Shown: positions 8,290 through 21,432 of the stretch, piece by piece
How the letters are laid out: each line of letters begins with the position of its first letter
How positions within the stretch are numbered: position 1 is the first letter of the stretch
From: Eubacteriales bacterium
Lineage (GTDB): Bacteria > Bacillota > Clostridia > Tissierellales > Dethiosulfatibacteraceae
Assembly (NCBI GenBank): GCA_030694905.1
Contig: JAUYTY010000219.1
Location: 1-36,893 of the forward strand
Length of the DNA: 36,893 nucleotides
Direction of reading: 5' to 3'
Position numbers and translations under genes: made by a program
The notes under the pieces: model-generated
Databases searched by the model: none
Told to the model about the DNA's origin: nothing
The model's input: the letters and a program-made list of their open reading frames with translations, nothing else

Positions 8290-8374
8290 ACATTGCACTT
8301 AAAACGTAGAAGCATTTATATCTGGCTAAACATAAATAATCTGCACAAAATATATCATACCAGGAGAGTTGGCA

Positions 8375-9187
8375 GTGAAAAAAACCCCTTTAGTTAGTGT
8401 TCTGATACCAACATATAAGAGCACCAGTTCATTAAAAATGTCAGTTGAATCAGTATTATCCCAAACCTATGAAAATTATGAAATTATAGTTATAGACGAT
8501 AATAATCCTGATACAGAGTATCGAAGAAGAACAGAAGCAATAATGGATAGATATATACATAATCCTAAGATTATGTATATAAAGCATTCAAAGAACAAGA
8601 ATGGAGCGGCTGCAAGAAACACAGGATTTAAAAATTCCAAAGGGGAACTTATATGCTTATACATGGAGATACCAAAAGGGCAAGACTATTGGGTTTTTTA
8701 AAGAAGGCAATTTGACAAAAGAGATTCTGAGCTTGGAGTATACGCCATATACAAGTTCTATTATGTTAAAAAGAGAGTGTTACGAAGATCTCAATGGCTT
8801 TGATGAGCGGTATAACCGGCATCAAGATTATGAATTCTTATTGAGATTTTTCAAGAAATTTAGAATAGGTGTAGTAAAAGAGCCTTTATTGGAAATTAGA
8901 GGCAATGATATAGATAATAAGCTATATGGTCGTCAACTAGAAGAATTAAAAGATAATTTTCTTGAACAGTTTAAGGAGGAGATTCAAGAAATTGAACTGA
9001 ATGAAAAAAATTTCTACAAAAAAGTATTGGCTAGACACTATTCAGTCGTATTCGTCACTTATTTGAAAAAAAATCAATTAGTGATGCTATGCGTGTAATG
9101 ACTAAATACACTAGGGAAAGTGGTTTTTTGTTTTACTTAGCACTCTTAAGAAAAACTGTTAAGCATATTGAAACAAGATATAAGTGA
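8375..9187 (+). pseudogene. Degraded family 2 glycosyltransferase
   Basis: GTG at 8375 with AGGAGAG upstream opens a normal GT2 start (PLVSVLIPTYKSTSSLKMSV, VIDDNNPDTE, GAAARNTGFKNSKGELICL). Where the DDDD/DxD catalytic motif should follow, the frame jumps. The next recognisable part (GFFKEGNLTKEI, SSIMLKRECYEDLNGFDERY, HQDYEFLLRF) is in another frame, and roughly 50 expected residues around the DxD are missing. A second shift near 9045-9055 moves the C-terminus to a frame reading RIRHLFEKKSISDAMRVMTK down to a TGA at 9185-9187. The deletion and two frame changes make it non-functional. The stop abuts a GGGACGG palindrome. Confidence 0.8.
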
Positions 9188-11461: not shown

Positions 11462-12142
11462 ATGAAAGCACAGCAGGAAGTTAACAATAAAGAAATCAAG
11501 AGCAAACTGGTATATGACAAACTCTATCGAAAAATAATCTACGAAGAAATCCCTGACGAGACCAAGCTGGTTTCCAGGCATATTGCTATCGAGTACGGTG
11601 TCAGTGAGATTCCCGTGAGAGAGGCTTTGAAACGTCTTAATTCAGAGGGTCTTATAGATTATATTCCCTATCGTGGCTATGTGGTCACGAATTCTTCATT
11701 GGAAAAGCTCAGGGACCTTTGGGTGATAAAGGTCAATCTGGAGCTGTTTGCATGTAAGCTTGCGGTAGAATCGGTTAACGATAATGACATTAAAAGACTT
11801 AATGATAACATCAGTATGGCTAAAGATCTGATCCAAAAGAAAGAGTTTCATAAGTATTATAGGTTAAACAAAGATTTTCATCTGATATTCTGCGGGATCT
11901 GTAGAAACACCTTGATGGTGGACATGATAAAAAACCTGTGGGTCAGAACTGAAAAGCTAAGAGGCCCGTATCCCTTTTCCGAGGAGGAAATATTGGACTC
12001 GGTCAGTGAACATGAAGAGATGGTAAAAACGCTGGAAACTAAAGATGTTGAACGGTTGGAACATCTTTTATATAAGCAAAGAGACAAGATTTGGGATAAG
12101 TATTTGGGGATGTTTGAAAGACGTAAGTACTTATTGAGATGA
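11462..12142 (+). CDS. GntR-family (FadR/FCD) transcriptional regulator
   Basis: This is a 226-aa protein. The N-terminal winged HTH shows SRHIAIEYGVSEIPVREALKRL and YRGYVVTN. The C-terminal all-helical FCD effector domain carries likely metal ligands in NKDFHLIF and SVSEHEEM. FCD regulators usually sense carboxylates or acyl-CoAs and repress the adjacent catabolic operon. It is the first gene of a rightward cluster (38 bp to the DRE-TIM gene) and probably controls it. GAGGAG lies about 6 bases before the ATG. Confidence 0.88.
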   Translation: MKAQQEVNNKEIKSKLVYDKLYRKIIYEEIPDETKLVSRHIAIEYGVSEIPVREALKRLNSEGLIDYIPYRGYVVTNSSLEKLRDLWVIKVNLELFACKLAVESVNDNDIKRLNDNISMAKDLIQKKEFHKYYRLNKDFHLIFCGICRNTLMVDMIKNLWVRTEKLRGPYPFSEEEILDSVSEHEEMVKTLETKDVERLEHLLYKQRDKIWDKYLGMFERRKYLLR

Positions 12143-12179: not shown

Positions 12180-13391
12180 ATGTTGAAAAAGGAAAACTAT
12201 TACAAAGAGAATGCATGGTGGGCCAGTCCGTATAATGATGAGCCAGAGGTAAGAGATGGCATGGCTATAGCGGATAAGGTTGAGATTCATGACGCGACAC
12301 TGAGGGACGGGGAACAAACCCCAGGCGTTGTGTTCTCTGTTGACGATAAGATCCGTATCGCTGAAATGCTAAGCGAAGCAGGCGTTGAAAGAATTGAAGC
12401 TGGAATGCCGGCTGTTTCCAAAGTGGATTATGAGGCGGTTAAAAAGATATCCCGACTTAATTTGCCTTCGAAGATATTTGTTTTTTCCAGGGCAATGGAG
12501 ATTGATATCAATATGGCCGTTGAAAGCGGGGCGCAGGGCGTTGTCATTGAAGTGCCTATAGGCTATCCGAAATTGAAGCACCAGTTTCATTGGACGTGGG
12601 AAGACGTCCTTGAAAAAAGCATTGCCAGCATCAATTATGCAAAAAAACAAGGACTATATACTGTTTATTTTCCATACGACACAACAAGGGCCCGCTACGA
12701 GGACCTGGTGAATCTTATGGATGGAATCATGAAGTACTCCCCGCCGGACTCGGTTGGTGTGGTTGACACTGTGGGTTGCGCGCTTCCAGAGACCATCAAA
12801 TATCTGGTTAGAAAAATGAAGAAGCTGACAGGTGGCTTGCCAATAGAGGTTCACACGCACAATGATTTTGGAATGGGTGTTGCAACTGAGATCGCCGGGG
12901 TAGCCGCTGGCGCTGAGGTCATACATTCCTGCGTCAACGGGTTGGGAGAAAGAACCGGTAATGCCGCCACTGAGGAGCTGATGGTTGCCCTCAAAATCAT
13001 GATGGGGATCAATCACCATTACAAGCTTGATAAACTAATGGATCTGTGCAAGATGGTTGAGGAGATTTCCGGTGTGAAACTGGCGGAGAACAAGCCTATA
13101 TCAGGTGCCAGGAATTATGTCAGGGAATCGGGAATCGGAATTGATTTGGTTCTGAAAAATCCGTTGGCAATGTTCGCGACTGATCCCAAGCATTTTGGCA
13201 GGACAGGCGAGATTGTTCTGGGGAAAAAGAGCGGCAAGGCTTCAGTCGATTACTTTTTGGATAAGCTAAACATCCAGGTCAGCGAGCAGGCTATTGACGG
13301 GATTCTAGACCAGGTAAAGAAAATGGGCACCGAGAAAAAGGGTCTTGTGACGCTGGAAGAATTCCAACACATAGTTGAAGAGTATAAATAG
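12180..13391 (+). CDS. DRE-TIM metallolyase/synthase (homocitrate/isopropylmalate synthase-like), paralog 1
   Basis: The 403-aa protein has a barrel starting with HDATLRDGEQTPGV (about residue 37), the metal site HTHNDFGMG (about residue 225) and VNGLGERTGNAATEEL. These are the signatures of the family that joins or splits acetyl-CoA and a 2-oxoacid (LeuA, NifV, CimA, Re-citrate synthase, HMG-CoA lyase). A pre-barrel N-terminus WWASPYNDEPEVR is shared with the paralog at 20245. It has no LeuA regulatory domain (about 400 rather than 510 aa), so feedback control is unlikely. Both paralogs read LGKKSG where many homocitrate/isopropylmalate synthases have GKHSG. The position between a GntR regulator and SucCD-like subunits argues for a catabolic role. 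The substrate is unknown. Confidence 0.8.
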   Translation: MLKKENYYKENAWWASPYNDEPEVRDGMAIADKVEIHDATLRDGEQTPGVVFSVDDKIRIAEMLSEAGVERIEAGMPAVSKVDYEAVKKISRLNLPSKIFVFSRAMEIDINMAVESGAQGVVIEVPIGYPKLKHQFHWTWEDVLEKSIASINYAKKQGLYTVYFPYDTTRARYEDLVNLMDGIMKYSPPDSVGVVDTVGCALPETIKYLVRKMKKLTGGLPIEVHTHNDFGMGVATEIAGVAAGAEVIHSCVNGLGERTGNAATEELMVALKIMMGINHHYKLDKLMDLCKMVEEISGVKLAENKPISGARNYVRESGIGIDLVLKNPLAMFATDPKHFGRTGEIVLGKKSGKASVDYFLDKLNIQVSEQAIDGILDQVKKMGTEKKGLVTLEEFQHIVEEYK

Positions 13392-13403: not shown

Positions 13404-14528
13404 GTGAGATTATTCGAGTATCAGGCAAAGGCGATATTTGCCAAATATGGAATTGATATACCGAACGGACAGCTTGTCGATTCACATGATTCGATAGGCG
13501 ATTCCGCCAAAAAGATAGGGTACCCTGTGGTTTTGAAGGCACAGGCATTGGCAGGTGGCAGGGGTAAGGCAGGCGGTATCAGGTTTGCCAAGGATGACAT
13601 GGAAGCTGAAGGGAATGCCGGTATATTACTGGGCATGAACATCAATGGCGCAGCTGTCAGTTCGATACTGGTTGAAGAAAAGGTTGACATTGAAAAAGAG
13701 ATATATTTTTCAATCACCATGGATAGGGCTGCGAAAAGGCCGGTTGTGATCGTCTCCGCTGAGGGCGGCATGGACATTGAAGAGATTGCCAAATCGGAAC
13801 CAGATTCTATTTTAAAGGAATGGATTGATCCAACCCATGGATTTCATTCCTATCATGCGATCGATTTATTCAAACGAGCCGGCTTTACCGGAGATACTTT
13901 GCGAAAACTGTCTCAGCTGGCCGCCACATTGTACAAAATATTTTCGGAGTATGAGGCAGAGCTCGTTGAGATAAATCCCCTGGTAATAACGAGAAATGGA
14001 AGAGTTCTTGCGGTAGATGGCAAAGTGATTCTTGATGAGAACGGAAAAGGCGTCAAAGAATTTCAAATCCAGATCGACGCTGTGAGAGATGAGGACCTGA
14101 TGCGTTACGTTCCGCTTGAGGGTGACGTTGGCATACTGGCAAATGGCGCAGGCCTGACCATGATGACCATGGATGTTGTGGCCCACTATGGCGGCAATCC
14201 GGCTAACTTCATGGAAATTGGCGGAGAATTGTATAAGAAATCTGAAGAGGCGCTGGATTTTCTTCTGACCAGAAAGGATTTGAACGGTGTCTTGGTCAAT
14301 CTGTTTGGCGCCTACGCCAGGACGGATGTCATCATTGAAGGGATTTTAAGAAGCCTTGAGAAGCATGATACCGACATTCCCTTTGTATTCCGGGTGAGAG
14401 GAACAGGAGAGGAAAGGGCGAGAAAACTCTTAATGGAGAACCTGAACGTTGAGGCGCATGACGAGTTGGATGAAGCGGCAAAAGAGATTGTAATGAAAGC
14501 GGAAGATTATAGAAAGAGAAGGGTGTAG
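13404..14528 (+). CDS. ADP-forming acyl-CoA ligase, SucC-like beta subunit
   Basis: The 374-aa protein has an ATP-grasp N-terminal domain (LFEYQAKAIFAKYGI, GYPVVLKAQALAGGRGKAGG, ELVEINPLVIT) and a C-terminal ligase domain (LANGAGLTMMTMDVVAHYGG, NPANFMEIGG, DVIIEGILRSL). It is about 14 residues shorter than typical SucC, because the stretch before LANGAGL is compressed. ATP-grasp plus CoA-ligase subunits make an acyl-CoA, ADP and phosphate from a carboxylate. Family members include succinyl-CoA synthetase, malate-CoA ligase and citryl-CoA synthetase. GTG start with GAGGTGG upstream, 12 bp after the DRE-TIM gene. No other TCA-cycle genes are adjacent, so I doubt plain succinyl-CoA synthetase. 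Confidence 0.85.
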   Translation: MRLFEYQAKAIFAKYGIDIPNGQLVDSHDSIGDSAKKIGYPVVLKAQALAGGRGKAGGIRFAKDDMEAEGNAGILLGMNINGAAVSSILVEEKVDIEKEIYFSITMDRAAKRPVVIVSAEGGMDIEEIAKSEPDSILKEWIDPTHGFHSYHAIDLFKRAGFTGDTLRKLSQLAATLYKIFSEYEAELVEINPLVITRNGRVLAVDGKVILDENGKGVKEFQIQIDAVRDEDLMRYVPLEGDVGILANGAGLTMMTMDVVAHYGGNPANFMEIGGELYKKSEEALDFLLTRKDLNGVLVNLFGAYARTDVIIEGILRSLEKHDTDIPFVFRVRGTGEERARKLLMENLNVEAHDELDEAAKEIVMKAEDYRKRRV

Positions 14529-14530
14529 AG

Positions 14531-15397
14531 ATGTTGCTGTCAAAGAATAAGAAAGTCCTGGTCCAAGGAATAACAGGCAAGGAAGCGCAATACTGGGTTG
14601 AAAAAATGAATGATTACGGGACAGACATTCAGGCAGGCGTGGCTCCTGGCAAGGGTGGCCAGTCCATATTGGGAATTCCAGTTTATGACAGTGTCAAAGA
14701 GGCGGTAGAACAGCATGATATAGATACCACGTTAATGTTTGTTGCGCCATCTCTGGTAGAAACGGCAACAATGGAAGCGATTGATGGCGGGATCAAAGAG
14801 ATTGTGATACTCGCGGATGGCGTTCCTGTGCATGATATTATGAGAATGCTGTCCTATGGAGCAAAGAATGGCGTAAGAATAATAGGACCCAACACACCCG
14901 GATTGGTCTATCCGGGATTCAGCTCCATTGGCATTATGCCAAGCTGGCTACCGCATGTATTTCAACCGGGAGAGATTGGGGTCGTCAGCAGAAGCGGCAG
15001 CTTGGGCAACGAGGCATCATATCAGGTTGTGCAGGCAGGCTTTGGCATATCCCATTTCATCGGAATAGGCGGTGATCTCCTGGTGGGAACAACCACAGTG
15101 GAGGTATTGGAAGAATTTGAAAGAAATGATGATATCAAAGGCGTGGTGTTGATAGGCGAATTAGGTGGCAACATGGAAGAACAGGCAGCCCGCTTTGTCA
15201 AAACAATGAGCAAGCCTGTGGTAGCGTTGATTGCGGGGAAATCATCTCCGATAGGTGTTTCAATGGGGCATGCGGGAGCGATTGTCGAAGGAACTGAAGG
15301 CTCCGTGGAAAGCAAACAAAAAATCCTGGCGGACAATGGCGCTCATATTGCCAATACACCGATGGAAATAGGGAAATTGCTAAAAATTCTGGTTTAG
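14531..15397 (+). CDS. ADP-forming acyl-CoA ligase, SucD-like alpha subunit
   Basis: This 288-aa partner has the CoA-binding motif GVAPGKGGQSILGIPVYDSV, an IIGPNTPGLVYPG segment, SRSGSLGNEASYQVVQAG and the phosphohistidine motif SMGHAGAIVEGTEGS. The active-site His of the family is therefore present. It begins 2 bp after the beta-subunit stop, so the two are co-translated. The enzyme should transfer phosphate from ATP through His to the carboxylate and then to CoA. Which carboxylate cannot be read directly; the neighbouring DRE-TIM lyases and tricarboxylate transporters suggest a 2-hydroxy-di/tricarboxylate rather than succinate. Confidence 0.85.
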   Translation: MLLSKNKKVLVQGITGKEAQYWVEKMNDYGTDIQAGVAPGKGGQSILGIPVYDSVKEAVEQHDIDTTLMFVAPSLVETATMEAIDGGIKEIVILADGVPVHDIMRMLSYGAKNGVRIIGPNTPGLVYPGFSSIGIMPSWLPHVFQPGEIGVVSRSGSLGNEASYQVVQAGFGISHFIGIGGDLLVGTTTVEVLEEFERNDDIKGVVLIGELGGNMEEQAARFVKTMSKPVVALIAGKSSPIGVSMGHAGAIVEGTEGSVESKQKILADNGAHIANTPMEIGKLLKILV

Positions 15398-15410
15398 GAA
15401 GTGATTGATT

Positions 15411-16862
15411 TTGGCAAATAAAATTCTTGTTAAAAAAAATCTTTATATTATCTTAGCGATTGCAGCCTTGCTGATCATTCATTTTTTACCGCAACTACCT
15501 TCATTGATGAGAAATGGTGAAGAAATCGCATTGACCAAAGAAGGAAAGTCAACGTTGGCCATTCTGGTCTTTGCTGTGATTCTTTGGGTAACCGAAGCTA
15601 TTCCATTTCCTGTTACAGGACTGGTCTCGCTTTTATTGCTGCCTCTGTTCGGTTCAATAAAGTTCAGTCAGGCTGTGAATATGGGTTTTGGCAATACAAT
15701 TGTCGTATTCTTCATTGCTGTCATGACAATCTCTGCCGCTTTGACATATTCCGGATTGACCAATCGCTTGGCATTGATGATGCTAAGCAGGATTGGATTA
15801 AGGTCGGATTTGGTATTATTATCGTTTTTTATTGTTGGGGCGACGCTTTCGATGTGGGTGACAAACATGGCGGTTGCGGCTATGCTGCTTCCCGTTGGCA
15901 TTGGCATTCTCAAGGAAGCGAAGATGGAGCCGCTCAAGAGCAATTTTGGAAAGTGTTTGATGATTTCGATAGCCTGGAGCAGTGCCATAGGCGGTATTGC
16001 GACGCCGGTTGGAAACGGCGCGAATATTTTAGCGATGGGTTATCTGAGGGATTTGGCGGGTGTCGAGATCACTTTCATCAAATGGATGTCGGTTGGATTG
16101 CCTGCAGCCATTCTTATCATCATACCGGCCTGGTATAGTTTACTGAAAATCTTTCCGCCAGAGGTGAAGATACTGCCTCTTTCTCAGGATAAGATCAGTA
16201 AGGATTTAAAAGAATTGGGCGCTTTGAACCATAAAGAGAAGTGGACTTTGATTATTTTTTCCTTGGCGGTATTCCTATGGCTATTTGATCCCTTGCTAAA
16301 AAGCGCATTCGGCTTTTCACTTCCCACAGAAGTGGTGGCTTTGATGGCAGCGGTTCTGCTGTTTCTGCCAAGTGTGAATGTCTTATCTTGGAAAGAGGCT
16401 GAAAGGATCATTGACTGGGGTGCCATCGTTCTTATCGCATCGGGTCTGTCAATAGGGATGAGCCTTTATGAAACAGGGGCTGCCAGATGGTTGGCCTGGG
16501 CCACATTATCCAATATCGGATCGCTTTCGGTTCCTGTTAGGATATTTGCGGTTGTGCTGATAGTGGAAATACTAAAAATAAGCTTTTCCAGCAATACTGT
16601 CACCGGACTCATCATCATACCAATTGTTATCGCATTATCGGTTGAATTAGGGCTTGAACCATGGTTGGTGGCTGGACCTGCCGCTATCGCCACATCACTG
16701 GCTTTCATACTGATCACATCAAGTCCGACAAATGTTATACCATACTCGTCAGGGTATTTTACCATCAGAGATTTCGCCAAAGCGGGTATAGCGATCACAT
16801 TCATTGCAGCCGTTTGCGTGACCATATCATTTGTCGTTTTCGGTGTTTTAATTGAGTTTTAG
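15411..16862 (+). CDS. SLC13/DASS-family carboxylate:cation symporter
   Basis: This is a polytopic protein of about 483 aa with the paired family signatures: ATPVGNGANILAMGYL in the first half, and SNTVTGLIIIPIVIALSV with ITSSPTNVIPYSSGYF in the second. The SxT/N hairpin motifs bind sodium and carboxylate in DASS proteins. It probably imports a di- or tricarboxylate. AGGAAG at 15396-15401 favours the TTG at 15411 over the TTG at 15405. It lies 13 bp after the ligase alpha gene, so it belongs to the same operon. Confidence 0.85.
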   Translation: MANKILVKKNLYIILAIAALLIIHFLPQLPSLMRNGEEIALTKEGKSTLAILVFAVILWVTEAIPFPVTGLVSLLLLPLFGSIKFSQAVNMGFGNTIVVFFIAVMTISAALTYSGLTNRLALMMLSRIGLRSDLVLLSFFIVGATLSMWVTNMAVAAMLLPVGIGILKEAKMEPLKSNFGKCLMISIAWSSAIGGIATPVGNGANILAMGYLRDLAGVEITFIKWMSVGLPAAILIIIPAWYSLLKIFPPEVKILPLSQDKISKDLKELGALNHKEKWTLIIFSLAVFLWLFDPLLKSAFGFSLPTEVVALMAAVLLFLPSVNVLSWKEAERIIDWGAIVLIASGLSIGMSLYETGAARWLAWATLSNIGSLSVPVRIFAVVLIVEILKISFSSNTVTGLIIIPIVIALSVELGLEPWLVAGPAAIATSLAFILITSSPTNVIPYSSGYFTIRDFAKAGIAITFIAAVCVTISFVVFGVLIEF

Positions 16863-17082
16863 ATTTCGTGTGGTTGATCGAATTGGAGGAGGTGTTAACT
16901 TCGCTGGTAACGCGCTAGAGTTTTCAACGGATACTTAATTGTATATTTTAGAGGAGGAATGCTGTAACGTGAAAGGGGAGATGATGAACTTCTACCAGAC
17001 TTAAGTCAAACAATAATAGTTGGAAGAAAAACAAACTTTCTAGACATTTATGTTTAGAGAAAATCGAAAGGAGTTTATTACA

Positions 17083-18117
17083 ATGAAAAAACTTATGAGT
17101 ATCATTTTAGTCGTCACAATGATTTTGACAATTTTTATGCTACCAGGTTGCGGCAATACAGCAGCTCCTGCAACCACAGCAGCTCCTGCAACCACAGCAG
17201 CTCCCACAACAGCACCACCACCAACTTACCCAACTGGCAATATCACAGTTCTGGTTCCTTTTTCAGCCGGTGGCAGTACCGATTTAGTGGCGCGTATAAT
17301 AGCAGAGCCTCTTGGCAAGCTGTTGGGACAATCTGTAGTTGTTGAAAACAAACCGGGTGGTGGCGGCGCCATAGCGATGAATGCATTGGCCACTGCTAAG
17401 AAAGACGGTTACACAATTGCCCTGACATCTCTAGGTCCTGCGATACTAACACCAAACCAGGGTGAAGTTGGCTATACAAATAAGGAATTTCAACCCATCA
17501 GTCAGATTTCAGCTTTGCCAAGTCTTCTGTTTGTCGGCGTAGACAAGGGCTACACTACCTTGGCAGAGCTTGTTGCAGCAGCTGAGGCAAAACCAGGCGA
17601 AATGACATATTCCGTTTCGGGAGCTGGTGGAACGGGTCATGTGGCTTGTGAAAGATTCTTGTTAGAATTGGGACAGCCGGGGCTATTCAATATGGTGCCT
17701 TTTGACAGCGGTACTGAGGCAACAACAGCTGTCCTGGGTGGACATATTGATTTCAGTTTTGGTGATGACGGTGATACTGCAGACTATTTAGCGGATTGAT
17801 CCTTGATAGCTCTGTCAGTTGCTGCAGATGTAAGTGATCCTATTTTGCCGGATGTGCCTACATTTAAAGAGCTCGGATATGACCTTGTTATGGGGCCTTG
17901 GTGGGGTTTTGTAGCACCTGCAGGAACACCAGCAGAGATTATCACTATTCTGGAAGAAGCAATCAGGGAGGTTCTAGATGATCCGACAGTTGGCGAGCAA
18001 ATGTTGTTGGTCAATAGTCCTATTGTATATCTCAATTCAGCTGATTTTGCCGCCAAATGGATGGGTGATTTCGAAATATACGGAACTATTATTAAAGCTA
18101 TCCAGGCAGCTCAATAA
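17083..18117 (+). pseudogene. tctC: TctC/Bug-type solute-binding lipoprotein with one in-frame TGA
   Basis: ATG 17083 (AAAGGAG upstream) encodes a lipoprotein signal MKKLMSIILVVTMILTIFML-PGC with lipid-anchored Cys23. An Ala/Thr/Pro linker follows, built from an 18-bp DNA repeat (GCAGCTCCTGCAACCACA), and then a full TctC domain (ITVLVPFSAGGSTDLVARII, VVVENKPGGGGA, PILPDVPTFKELGYD). The reading frame is interrupted once, by TGA at 17797-17799, in TADYLAD-stop-SLIALSVAADV. Homologs usually have Gly here, so GGA to TGA is the likely change. The frame is otherwise intact to 18117. It is either a recent nonsense mutation, a sequencing error or readthrough. TctC binds a carboxylate for TctAB. Confidence 0.8.
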
Positions 18118-18238: not shown

Positions 18239-18691
18239 ATGAAAAAAATATCAGTAGGGTTTATGGTTGCAATGATGTTCTTTATTGGTGGGTTGGGAAT
18301 GTTAAGTGTAGCAATGCAATTATCATACAAATCCGCCGTTACGACAATAGGGGGTCCAGCTACTTTTCCAACATTTGTTCTAGTTATTTTAGTGTTCTTT
18401 TCTGGCGTCTTGGTGCTTACTGAATATAAAAAAATACGTAGTGGAACTTACGATACTTTTAAATATGAGCCGGGAGATTTTAAAAGAATCCTGTCCGTGA
18501 TTGTCGCTTCATTTTTTTATTTGCTTGTCATTGAGGCAACAGGCTACCTGATTGCTACTTTTATCTTTACAGCTGTGCTGATGTGGTTGTTTGGCGTCAG
18601 AGAAAAGACGCCTTTCATTGTGATTACGGTTATATACCCGATTCTTATTTTCTTTACCTTTAAAACATTGCTTAATATTCCATTACCATAA
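18239..18691 (+). CDS. tctB: Tripartite tricarboxylate transporter small membrane subunit TctB
   Basis: This 150-aa protein has four predicted membrane segments (VGFMVAMMFFIGGLGMLSVA; FPTFVLVILVFFSGVLVL; ILSVIVASFFYLLVIEATGY; FIVITVIYPILIFFTFKTLL), the layout and size of TctB. It sits between the binding protein and TctA as in standard tct operons and forms the membrane complex with TctA. AAGGTGG lies just upstream of the ATG. Confidence 0.82.
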   Translation: MKKISVGFMVAMMFFIGGLGMLSVAMQLSYKSAVTTIGGPATFPTFVLVILVFFSGVLVLTEYKKIRSGTYDTFKYEPGDFKRILSVIVASFFYLLVIEATGYLIATFIFTAVLMWLFGVREKTPFIVITVIYPILIFFTFKTLLNIPLP

Positions 18692-18712
18692 TAATAAGGA
18701 GGTGAATATGTG

Positions 18713-20167
18713 ATGTTTACATTAGCAAGTGTATTATTTTGTTTTATTGGCACCTGTATCGGGATAATTTTTGGCGCGATTCCGGGATTAACCACTACAA
18801 TGGCAATTGCACTGTTTTTACCTTTTACATTTGGTATGGAAGCGATACCGGCATTTGCCCTTTTGTTGGGACTTTATTGTGGGGGAGTTTACGGTGGATC
18901 AATCACAGCCATTCTAATCAATACGCCAGGCACGCCGGCAGCGGCAGCAACAGCCCTTGACGGCTACCCGCTGGCAAGGCAGGGAAAGGCGCTTGAGGCT
19001 TTGTCATTGGCAACACTCGCATCATTTATAGGGGGGATGTTCAGCTGCATCGTATTGATTCTTGTGGCACCACAACTGGCTAAGGTGGCTTTAAGCTTCG
19101 GACCACCGGAGTATTTCGCCATCAGCTTCTTTGGATTGAGTATGGTTGCAACCCTTGCCGCTGACAACATAGTCAAAGGTGTCATTGCAGCCTGTTTCGG
19201 ACTGTTTATAGCCATGATAGGTATAGATCCCATAGGTGGCTCGTTGAGATTTACTTTCGGCACCATTCATCTGATAGCAGGAATAGATCTGATTTGCGCA
19301 TTGATCGGTTTGTTTGCCATCTCCGAGGTCTTTTCCAAGCTAGAAACAATTTACAGGGACAAAGGTCTAGGGCATATGGAGCAGATCAAAGGTAAATTTG
19401 TAACTCTGAAAATATTAAAGGCGAATGCGTTTAACTTTCTAAGATCCTCTATCATTGGAACAATCATCGGGATAATTCCAGCCACAGGCGTCGGTATGGC
19501 CAACTGGGTTTCCTATAACGAGGCAAAAAGAGCGACCAGGCATCCCGAGCTTTTCGGTAAAGGCTCCTATGAGGGCGTCGCCGCTTCGGAAGCCGCCAAC
19601 AACGCGGTTACAGGCGGTGCGATGGTTCCGTTGTTGACACTGGGTGTACCCGGTGACACTATGACCGCGATTTTGCTGGGTGCTTTGATGATTCAGGGTT
19701 TGGCGCCTGGACCTAAGTTGTTTATTGATCATCCGGAGGTTGTAACTGGCATCTATGGTATGCTGGCGCTTGCCAATTTCTTCATGCTGGCTGTAGGACT
19801 CGGATTGATCAATCTGTTTGTTAAAATCATAAAGGTTCCTGCCAAGGTGTTGATGCCTCTTGTTTTAATCATGTGCTTTGTCGGATCTTATGCGATTCAG
19901 AACAGTCTTTTCGATGTTTATGTAACTTTAATCTTTGGCATAATAGGATACTTATTGGTTAAGGCAAAATTTCCTATTCCCCCGATTTTACTTGGGATAA
20001 TTCTGGGACCATTGATTGAATCCAACTTCAGGCGATCGATTACCATGTCACGTGGCGACATGAGCATTTTCTTCACACGCCCGATCTCAGCGGTATTCAT
20101 CGGAATAGCACTGATAGCGATGGTTGCCCCAATTTTAAGAGAGAAACTCACCGCGAAGAAGGCTTAA
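18713..20167 (+). CDS. tctA: Tripartite tricarboxylate transporter large membrane subunit TctA
   Basis: A polytopic protein of about 484 aa with the conserved TctA motifs: FGAIPGLTTTMAIALFLPFT, INTPGTPAAAATALDGYPLA, GTIIGIIPATGVGMANWVSY, SEAANNAVTGGAMVPLLTLG and MIQGLAPGP. It forms the translocation path of the TctABC carboxylate uptake system and uses the ion gradient. AAGGAGGTG precedes it; ATG 18713 is chosen, with GTG 18710 as an alternative. A terminator follows immediately. Confidence 0.92.
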   Translation: MFTLASVLFCFIGTCIGIIFGAIPGLTTTMAIALFLPFTFGMEAIPAFALLLGLYCGGVYGGSITAILINTPGTPAAAATALDGYPLARQGKALEALSLATLASFIGGMFSCIVLILVAPQLAKVALSFGPPEYFAISFFGLSMVATLAADNIVKGVIAACFGLFIAMIGIDPIGGSLRFTFGTIHLIAGIDLICALIGLFAISEVFSKLETIYRDKGLGHMEQIKGKFVTLKILKANAFNFLRSSIIGTIIGIIPATGVGMANWVSYNEAKRATRHPELFGKGSYEGVAASEAANNAVTGGAMVPLLTLGVPGDTMTAILLGALMIQGLAPGPKLFIDHPEVVTGIYGMLALANFFMLAVGLGLINLFVKIIKVPAKVLMPLVLIMCFVGSYAIQNSLFDVYVTLIFGIIGYLLVKAKFPIPPILLGIILGPLIESNFRRSITMSRGDMSIFFTRPISAVFIGIALIAMVAPILREKLTAKKA

Positions 20168-20244: not shown

Positions 20245-21432
20245 ATGAACAAAGAAGGCTTTTGGCTGAGTCACTTCAATGATGCCGAGGAAGTTAGAAA
20301 TCAATATGTTAAAATGAAAAAGAAAATCATGATCTACGACACAACACTTCGGGATGGGGAACAAAGCGTTGGCGTAAGCATGAACGCCGATGCCAAGGTT
20401 AGAATTGCGAAGGCGCTCGCCGATGTTGGCGTTGATCGAATTGAAGCTGGGTTTCCATCTGTTAACGATGAGGACAAATCAGCTATGGCAAGGATTGTCA
20501 GAGAGATTAAGAATAGCGAAATCTGGGGTTTTGGAAGATGCAATGTGGATGATGTGAAAGCCAACATGGAAATTGGCATAAAAAGCATGGTCTGCGAAAT
20601 AATGACAAGCCCTGAGAAAATGAAAGCATGGGGCGTGACGGAAGATGTTGTTCTGCAAAGGATAAGGGATGCGGTCAGCTACGCAAAACAGGAAAATATC
20701 TACACGTCATTCTTTGCAGTGGATGCTACCAGAGCAAATACTGAATTTTTGAAAAAAGTCTATCAGACCGCGGTTAAAGATTGCGGTGCCGACGAAATTG
20801 TAATCGTTGACACCCTAGGTGTTGCATCGCCTGAAGCTATTGCCCATCTGACAAGAATGGTAAAGGGCTGGGTTGATGTGCCGGTTGGGATACATTGCCA
20901 TAATGATTTTGGATTGGCACTGGCATGCACACTTGCGGGCATTAAGGAAGGCGCTGATTCCGCACATGTTACGGTGAATGGTCTTGGTGAGAAAACCGGA
21001 AACACCGATTTGGCTGAACTTGCATTGGCATTGTACGGATTATATGATGTAGAGACAAACATCAAATTGGACAAGTTGGTGGACCTCAGCAAACTGGTGG
21101 AAGAAATCACTAGGGTTCCTGTATCGTCAATGCGCCCGGTTGTTGGAGATAAAGTGTTTACCAGGGAAAGCGGTTTGGTAATCGCACAGATGCTGGCATA
21201 TCCCCCTTCTATCGAAGGATATGCGCCTGAAGTTGTTGGAAGAACAAGAAAAATCGTATTGGGCAAGAAAAGTGGCAAGAAATCCATTGAATACGCTTTG
21301 AGTGAAATCGGGCGTACTGCAGATGACAAAATGATGGATATTCTGTTGGATAAGGTTAAGGAACTGAGCATGACTAACAAAAGAGAGGTTTCAATCGAAG
21401 AATTTGAGACTATTGCTGCTAGTCTGATGTAG
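20245..21432 (+). CDS. DRE-TIM metallolyase/synthase, paralog 2
   Basis: This 395-aa homolog of the 12180 gene shares its architecture: pre-barrel FWLSHFNDAEEVRNQ, YDTTLRDGEQSVGV (about residue 31), metal site HCHNDFGLAL (about residue 216), VNGLGEKTGNTDLAEL and VLGKKSGKKSIEY. It also lacks the LeuA regulatory domain. Start 20245 is chosen because the shared N-terminus begins there and AGGGAG lies upstream; an in-frame ATG at 20179 falls inside the terminator. Two diverged paralogs in one cluster suggest two substrates, two stereoisomers or a synthase/lyase split. The product is uncertain beyond acetyl-CoA/2-oxoacid chemistry. Confidence 0.8.
   Translation: MNKEGFWLSHFNDAEEVRNQYVKMKKKIMIYDTTLRDGEQSVGVSMNADAKVRIAKALADVGVDRIEAGFPSVNDEDKSAMARIVREIKNSEIWGFGRCNVDDVKANMEIGIKSMVCEIMTSPEKMKAWGVTEDVVLQRIRDAVSYAKQENIYTSFFAVDATRANTEFLKKVYQTAVKDCGADEIVIVDTLGVASPEAIAHLTRMVKGWVDVPVGIHCHNDFGLALACTLAGIKEGADSAHVTVNGLGEKTGNTDLAELALALYGLYDVETNIKLDKLVDLSKLVEEITRVPVSSMRPVVGDKVFTRESGLVIAQMLAYPPSIEGYAPEVVGRTRKIVLGKKSGKKSIEYALSEIGRTADDKMMDILLDKVKELSMTNKREVSIEEFETIAASLM

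Follow-up and report, generated by a model that had tools for sequence, protein, structure and literature searches.

tctC interrupted by an in-frame TGA

The gene tctC, for the solute-binding protein of a tripartite tricarboxylate transporter, is interrupted once by an in-frame TGA, at codon 239 of 345 (17797-17799, translating from the ATG at 17083), and we take this stop to be probably a recent nonsense null allele, carried by this strain or by the dominant strain of the sample. Unless the base is wrong, the gene is a broken member of the TctC family. The main rival, which we hold to be fairly unlikely, is an erroneous consensus base in a draft and probably metagenome-derived assembly, tctC being intact in the organism itself. 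The analysis gave no hint of an unusual genetic mechanism; the explanation is most likely an ordinary one, null allele or consensus error.

The window, by which we mean the whole stretch of DNA analysed (36,893 nucleotides), is contig C120 of a draft genome of 2.81 Mb in 221 contigs, 99% complete with an estimated contamination of 2.34%. The genes of the plus-strand cluster that contains tctC follow one another in this order:

11462-12142, plus strand: GntR/FCD regulator, first gene of the cluster (PF00392, PF07729)
12180-13391, plus strand: isopropylmalate/homocitrate synthase-like enzyme, first of two (PF00682; below all NCBIfam cut-offs listed)
13404-15397, plus strand: succinate/malate-CoA ligase-like beta and alpha subunits (NF001913, 376 bits, above cut-off; TIGR01019, 331 bits, below cut-off)
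15405-16862, plus strand: DASS (SLC13-type) sodium:anion symporter (TIGR00785, 244.9 bits, cut-off 198.6)
17083-18117, plus strand: tctC, interrupted solute-binding protein, 345 codons (PF03401, 163 bits with read-through)
17797-17799, plus strand: in-frame TGA, codon 239 of tctC, from translation
17800-18117, plus strand: 3' part of tctC, TctC-like and conserved as in intact relatives (PF03401, 49 bits)
18239-18691, plus strand: tctB, small membrane subunit, intact (PF07331, 60 bits)
18710-20167, plus strand: tctA, large membrane subunit, intact (PF01970, 528 bits, profile positions 2-423 of 423)
20245-21432, plus strand: second isopropylmalate/homocitrate synthase-like enzyme (PF00682; likewise under every NCBIfam cut-off listed)

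Genes for a gamma carbonic anhydrase-like and a fumarylacetoacetate hydrolase-like protein come after these on the same strand.

The frame that begins at the ATG at 17083 has stops only at codons 239 (TGA) and 345 (TAA). Judged from the ggag about 9 bases upstream, this ATG is most likely the start; the mechanical open reading frame begins earlier, at 17050. In Pfam profile searches the part before the stop scores 99 bits against PF03401 (TctC), the part after it 49, and the translation across it 163 (cut-off 27 bits), covering profile positions 1-272 of 274. Because both halves share frame, order and family, chance is ruled out as the source of the split. Like other TctC/Bug solute-binding proteins, the read-through product fills the whole family profile, and its gene adjoins tctB and tctA; unlike theirs, its frame is cut. 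Relatives of solved structure, among them BugD (2f5x), 2dvz, 4x9t and 25hk, align over most of the mature part. An earlier note made from the window had described a single in-frame TGA in a binding-protein gene intact on both sides in one frame, within an operon otherwise whole, and all of this is borne out: uninterrupted frames with their domains are found for tctB, tctA, the DASS/SLC13 symporter and the enzymes encoded nearby.

In a structural model of the read-through translation (mean pLDDT 91, pTM 0.81), residue 239 lies in the turn between a helix (229-237) and a strand (241-247). In the model, termination there removes strands 241-247, 273-279 and 314-317 together with the helices from 284 to 343. 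Release at codon 239 would leave a 238-residue lipoprotein precursor missing its last 106 residues and, since core strands and C-terminal helices are lost in the model, such a product should neither fold nor bind ligand.

Relatives and the age of the stop

Among 44 distinct relatives (a set that leaves out the two rows belonging to the window itself, identical duplicates, and any match that begins after query residue 100 or stops short of residue 260), the alignment column of codon 239 holds Gly in 39, Glu in one, a gap in four and Cys in none. Three relatives found later have Thr (L100), Gly (L093) and Ile (L094) at the counterpart, the alignments of L100 and L094 being loose around this position. 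The earlier note's statement that the residue is normally Gly therefore stands as a family trend, and does not hold for the nearest relative, L100, at 45% identity. Loss of a Gly codon, as that note had it, is accordingly the simplest guess and not a certainty.

No match to the tctC protein above 45% identity was found among 60 relatives, 249 genomes of the order and 391 of the class (the last two searched with strict E-value limits of 1e-45 and 1e-52), GTDB contigs or plasmids. The best GTDB contig match is 37% identical; plasmid matches all lie under 60%, the best among the matches listed being 37%; and the viral contigs searched held none. The closest protein, that of L100 (45% identical by genome search, 42% by tblastn), comes from another family of the same class and from an operon that is evidently orthologous, with the order GntR regulator, synthase, tctC, tctB, tctA. 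The L100 synthase is 74% identical to the product of 20245-21432 and its TctA is 61% identical, with a carbonic anhydrase-like protein (64%) encoded beyond tctA, past two intervening genes. Here tctC is open, so that an intact orthologue exists elsewhere, which supports a null allele in our genome, although a best protein match of 45% counts on the other side.

Of 39 TctC matches in the organism's own genome and the 60 relatives, two contain a stop, one being tctC of the window and the other a partial match of 114 residues that has a TAG. The stop thus appears, as far as can be seen, private to this genome. Identity downstream of the stop relative to that upstream averages 0.82 over the relatives, with 23 of the 44 intact relatives lower and 21 higher; against L100 the identities are 107/218 before the stop and 36/101 after it. 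The 3' part shows no sign of relaxed constraint, a comparison that at such distances would detect only long decay.

Such a downstream part accords with a recent null allele, and also with a consensus error, since the rest of tctC looks functional and the operon is otherwise whole. It agrees as well with near-cognate readthrough of the UGA yielding enough full-length TctC, a reading that we nonetheless regard as improbable. No relative keeps the stop, which makes a conserved readthrough device unlikely, and the basal leak at UGA would give only little protein.

Selenocysteine and the genetic code

The possibilities listed in the earlier note (recent loss, sequence error or readthrough) prove to be the right ones; what its author could not see is how the rest of the genome treats TGA. 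A profile search of the genome finds SelB (358.8 bits, cut-off 242); tRNA-Sec is encoded too (68 bits, gathering threshold 47), and the GrdB and GrdA genes carry in-frame TGA codons (stretch L092, 244-246 and 1017-1019 respectively, contig C35), GrdB bearing the Rfam element SECIS_4 (52 bits). GrdB was named by gene order, a thioredoxin-like gene and GrdA following it, by a Cys two codons after the TGA and by its SECIS. From these genes, the organism very probably decodes TGA as selenocysteine (Sec) and probably uses glycine reductase, and recoding of tctC therefore had to be considered. If recoded, tctC would encode a new TctC-family selenoprotein, with Sec in place of a former Gly in the turn that leads into a core strand.

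In carrying an in-frame TGA within a genome that has the Sec machinery, tctC resembles the bacterial selenoproteins GrdA, GrdB and SaoX. A review names SaoX, an ABC substrate-binding subunit, as a selenoprotein, a precedent for a substrate-binding member of this class; the terms "TctC" and "tricarboxylate" are absent from its main text (PMC13188914). Unlike these selenoproteins, tctC has at codon 239 a non-redox site, usually Gly, outside any redox motif context, with neither Cys-containing relatives nor a supported SECIS. Cys occupies the place of Sec in none of the 44 aligned relatives and none of the three further ones. It is this lack of Cys in 47 relatives, together with the non-redox character of the site, that counts in the case against Sec and makes the reading, to our judgment, very improbable, even though GrdA is a known exception to the rule of Cys for Sec in relatives (PMC1088965).

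Evidence from RNA folding is less discriminating. Rfam detects no SECIS at tctC, in a search that detected the one of GrdB and missed that of GrdA. With bSECIS criteria that we coded from the review (PMC13188914), the 64-nt fold at tctC passes and the 50-nt fold fails, while both controls, GrdA and GrdB, fail, and arbitrary TGAs pass in 321 of 4000 cases (50 nt) and 457 of 4000 (64 nt), i.e., 8-11%, which leaves this comparison without weight for or against Sec. Fold-energy z-scores lie close to 0 for tctC, as they do for the two selenoprotein controls. The local hairpin at tctC is within the top 4% for stability among 13,830 TGAs, yet it is more stable than those of the real controls, and its loop, UUG, has no G at either of its first two positions, where one is expected. 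More generally, an in-frame TGA in a Sec-decoding genome needs a check for Sec before the gene is labelled a pseudogene.

A changed code, in which TGA stands for Gly or Trp genome-wide, would fit the Gly that is usual at this position in the family. It is excluded as a global code by the use of TGA as an ordinary terminator: TGA ends 10 of the 33 other open reading frames listed in the window and 42 of 167 long coding-like frames in the sample (16/84 and 26/83), and among surveyed genes it splits none except tctC. An RF-2-type release factor gene, which likewise argues against such a code, was recognised by a CTTTGA near its start (stretch L062, about 17300-17320, minus strand, contig C44), a site resembling that of the known autoregulatory frameshift of prfB. 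A null allele in turn calls for a genome in which TGA ordinarily terminates translation, as it does here.

Null allele or consensus error

Same-frame stops were surveyed in the window and 40 further stretches, about 557 kb of readable sequence or some 20% of the draft, with coding potential as the filter. The window and the first 20 stretches (305,794 bases, 2,518 of them N) gave 13 same-frame pairs, and the other 20 stretches (253,494 bases) gave six. The 13 comprise tctC, nine pairs scanned as read-through translations and three within the window judged by gene positions; the later six were all scanned. Across the surveyed sequence, tctC alone among the 19 pairs proved to be one gene in two pieces. 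In 13 of the 15 scanned pairs other than tctC, separate families end before and begin after the stop; of the remaining two, one (L071:6015-6599) matched no family and the other (L113) matched only after its stop. All 2,518 bases of one stretch (L063, contig C55) are N, its length equalling the N count of the sample.

The surveyed sequence gives no sign of an assembly rich in errors, nor of nonsense decay on a wide scale. The survey favours neither of the two main readings, and so does not separate a null allele from a consensus error: same-frame stops are not in excess over the roughly 557 kb, which argues against error, and no other gene in the sampled fifth of the genome was found split by a same-frame nonsense codon, which argues against a null allele. 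A draft of 221 contigs with estimated contamination of 2.34% is one in which a wrong base could stand. On the other hand, the assembly holds this tctC in a single copy, with no second, differing copy, which speaks for the null allele and against an error. In its single stop, absence of a frameshift, two family-matching halves and conserved remainder, tctC is like recent bacterial nonsense pseudogenes and differs from them in nothing we can name, its stop being known here from the consensus. Gene decay also seems to occur on this contig, a second gene being broken by an apparent internal deletion, and the further Tct copies described below would make the loss tolerable. While these points lead us to favour the null allele, a consensus error would give the identical picture, and sequence alone cannot tell the two apart.

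Consequences for transport

Four TctA and four TctC proteins are encoded in the genome; the three other TctC genes are open, each with a TctA no more than about 1 kb away. The earlier note had proposed that the TctAB pair is left lacking its binding protein. That the truncated product misses core strands in the model agrees with this, while the three other intact TctC proteins qualify it, as substitution by one of them is possible from the gene content. The TctAB pair would then be idle or served by another binding protein. Orphan binding proteins have been described, while orphan TctA is rare (PMC5812351), and a Variovorax strain deleted for one particular tctC could no longer grow on the substrate of that protein, whereas deleting a different tctC had no effect (PMC8102459). 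On the strength of that deletion result and the rarity of orphan TctA, loss of this TctC would probably silence its transporter, barring substitution by another binding protein. The adjacent DASS symporter, a putative and plausible back-up, may take over transport of the substrate. If the stop is real, it adds one more case in which a membrane partner persists after its solute-binding protein has been lost, and with three other intact TctC proteins in the genome one could test whether TctAB pairs exchange binding proteins.

Other features of the neighbourhood

Between the two synthase-like genes (12180-13391 and 20245-21432) lie the CoA-ligase pair and carboxylate transporters of two kinds; synthases, CoA ligase and transporters could possibly together constitute an uncharacterised dicarboxylate pathway. 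Elsewhere in the window, a family 2 glycosyltransferase gene (8369-9098) is split into two frames, with PF10111 positions 87-150 (about 64) absent between the halves. This break suggests an internal deletion with frameshift, and would represent either decay of a kind unlike that of tctC or a misassembly.
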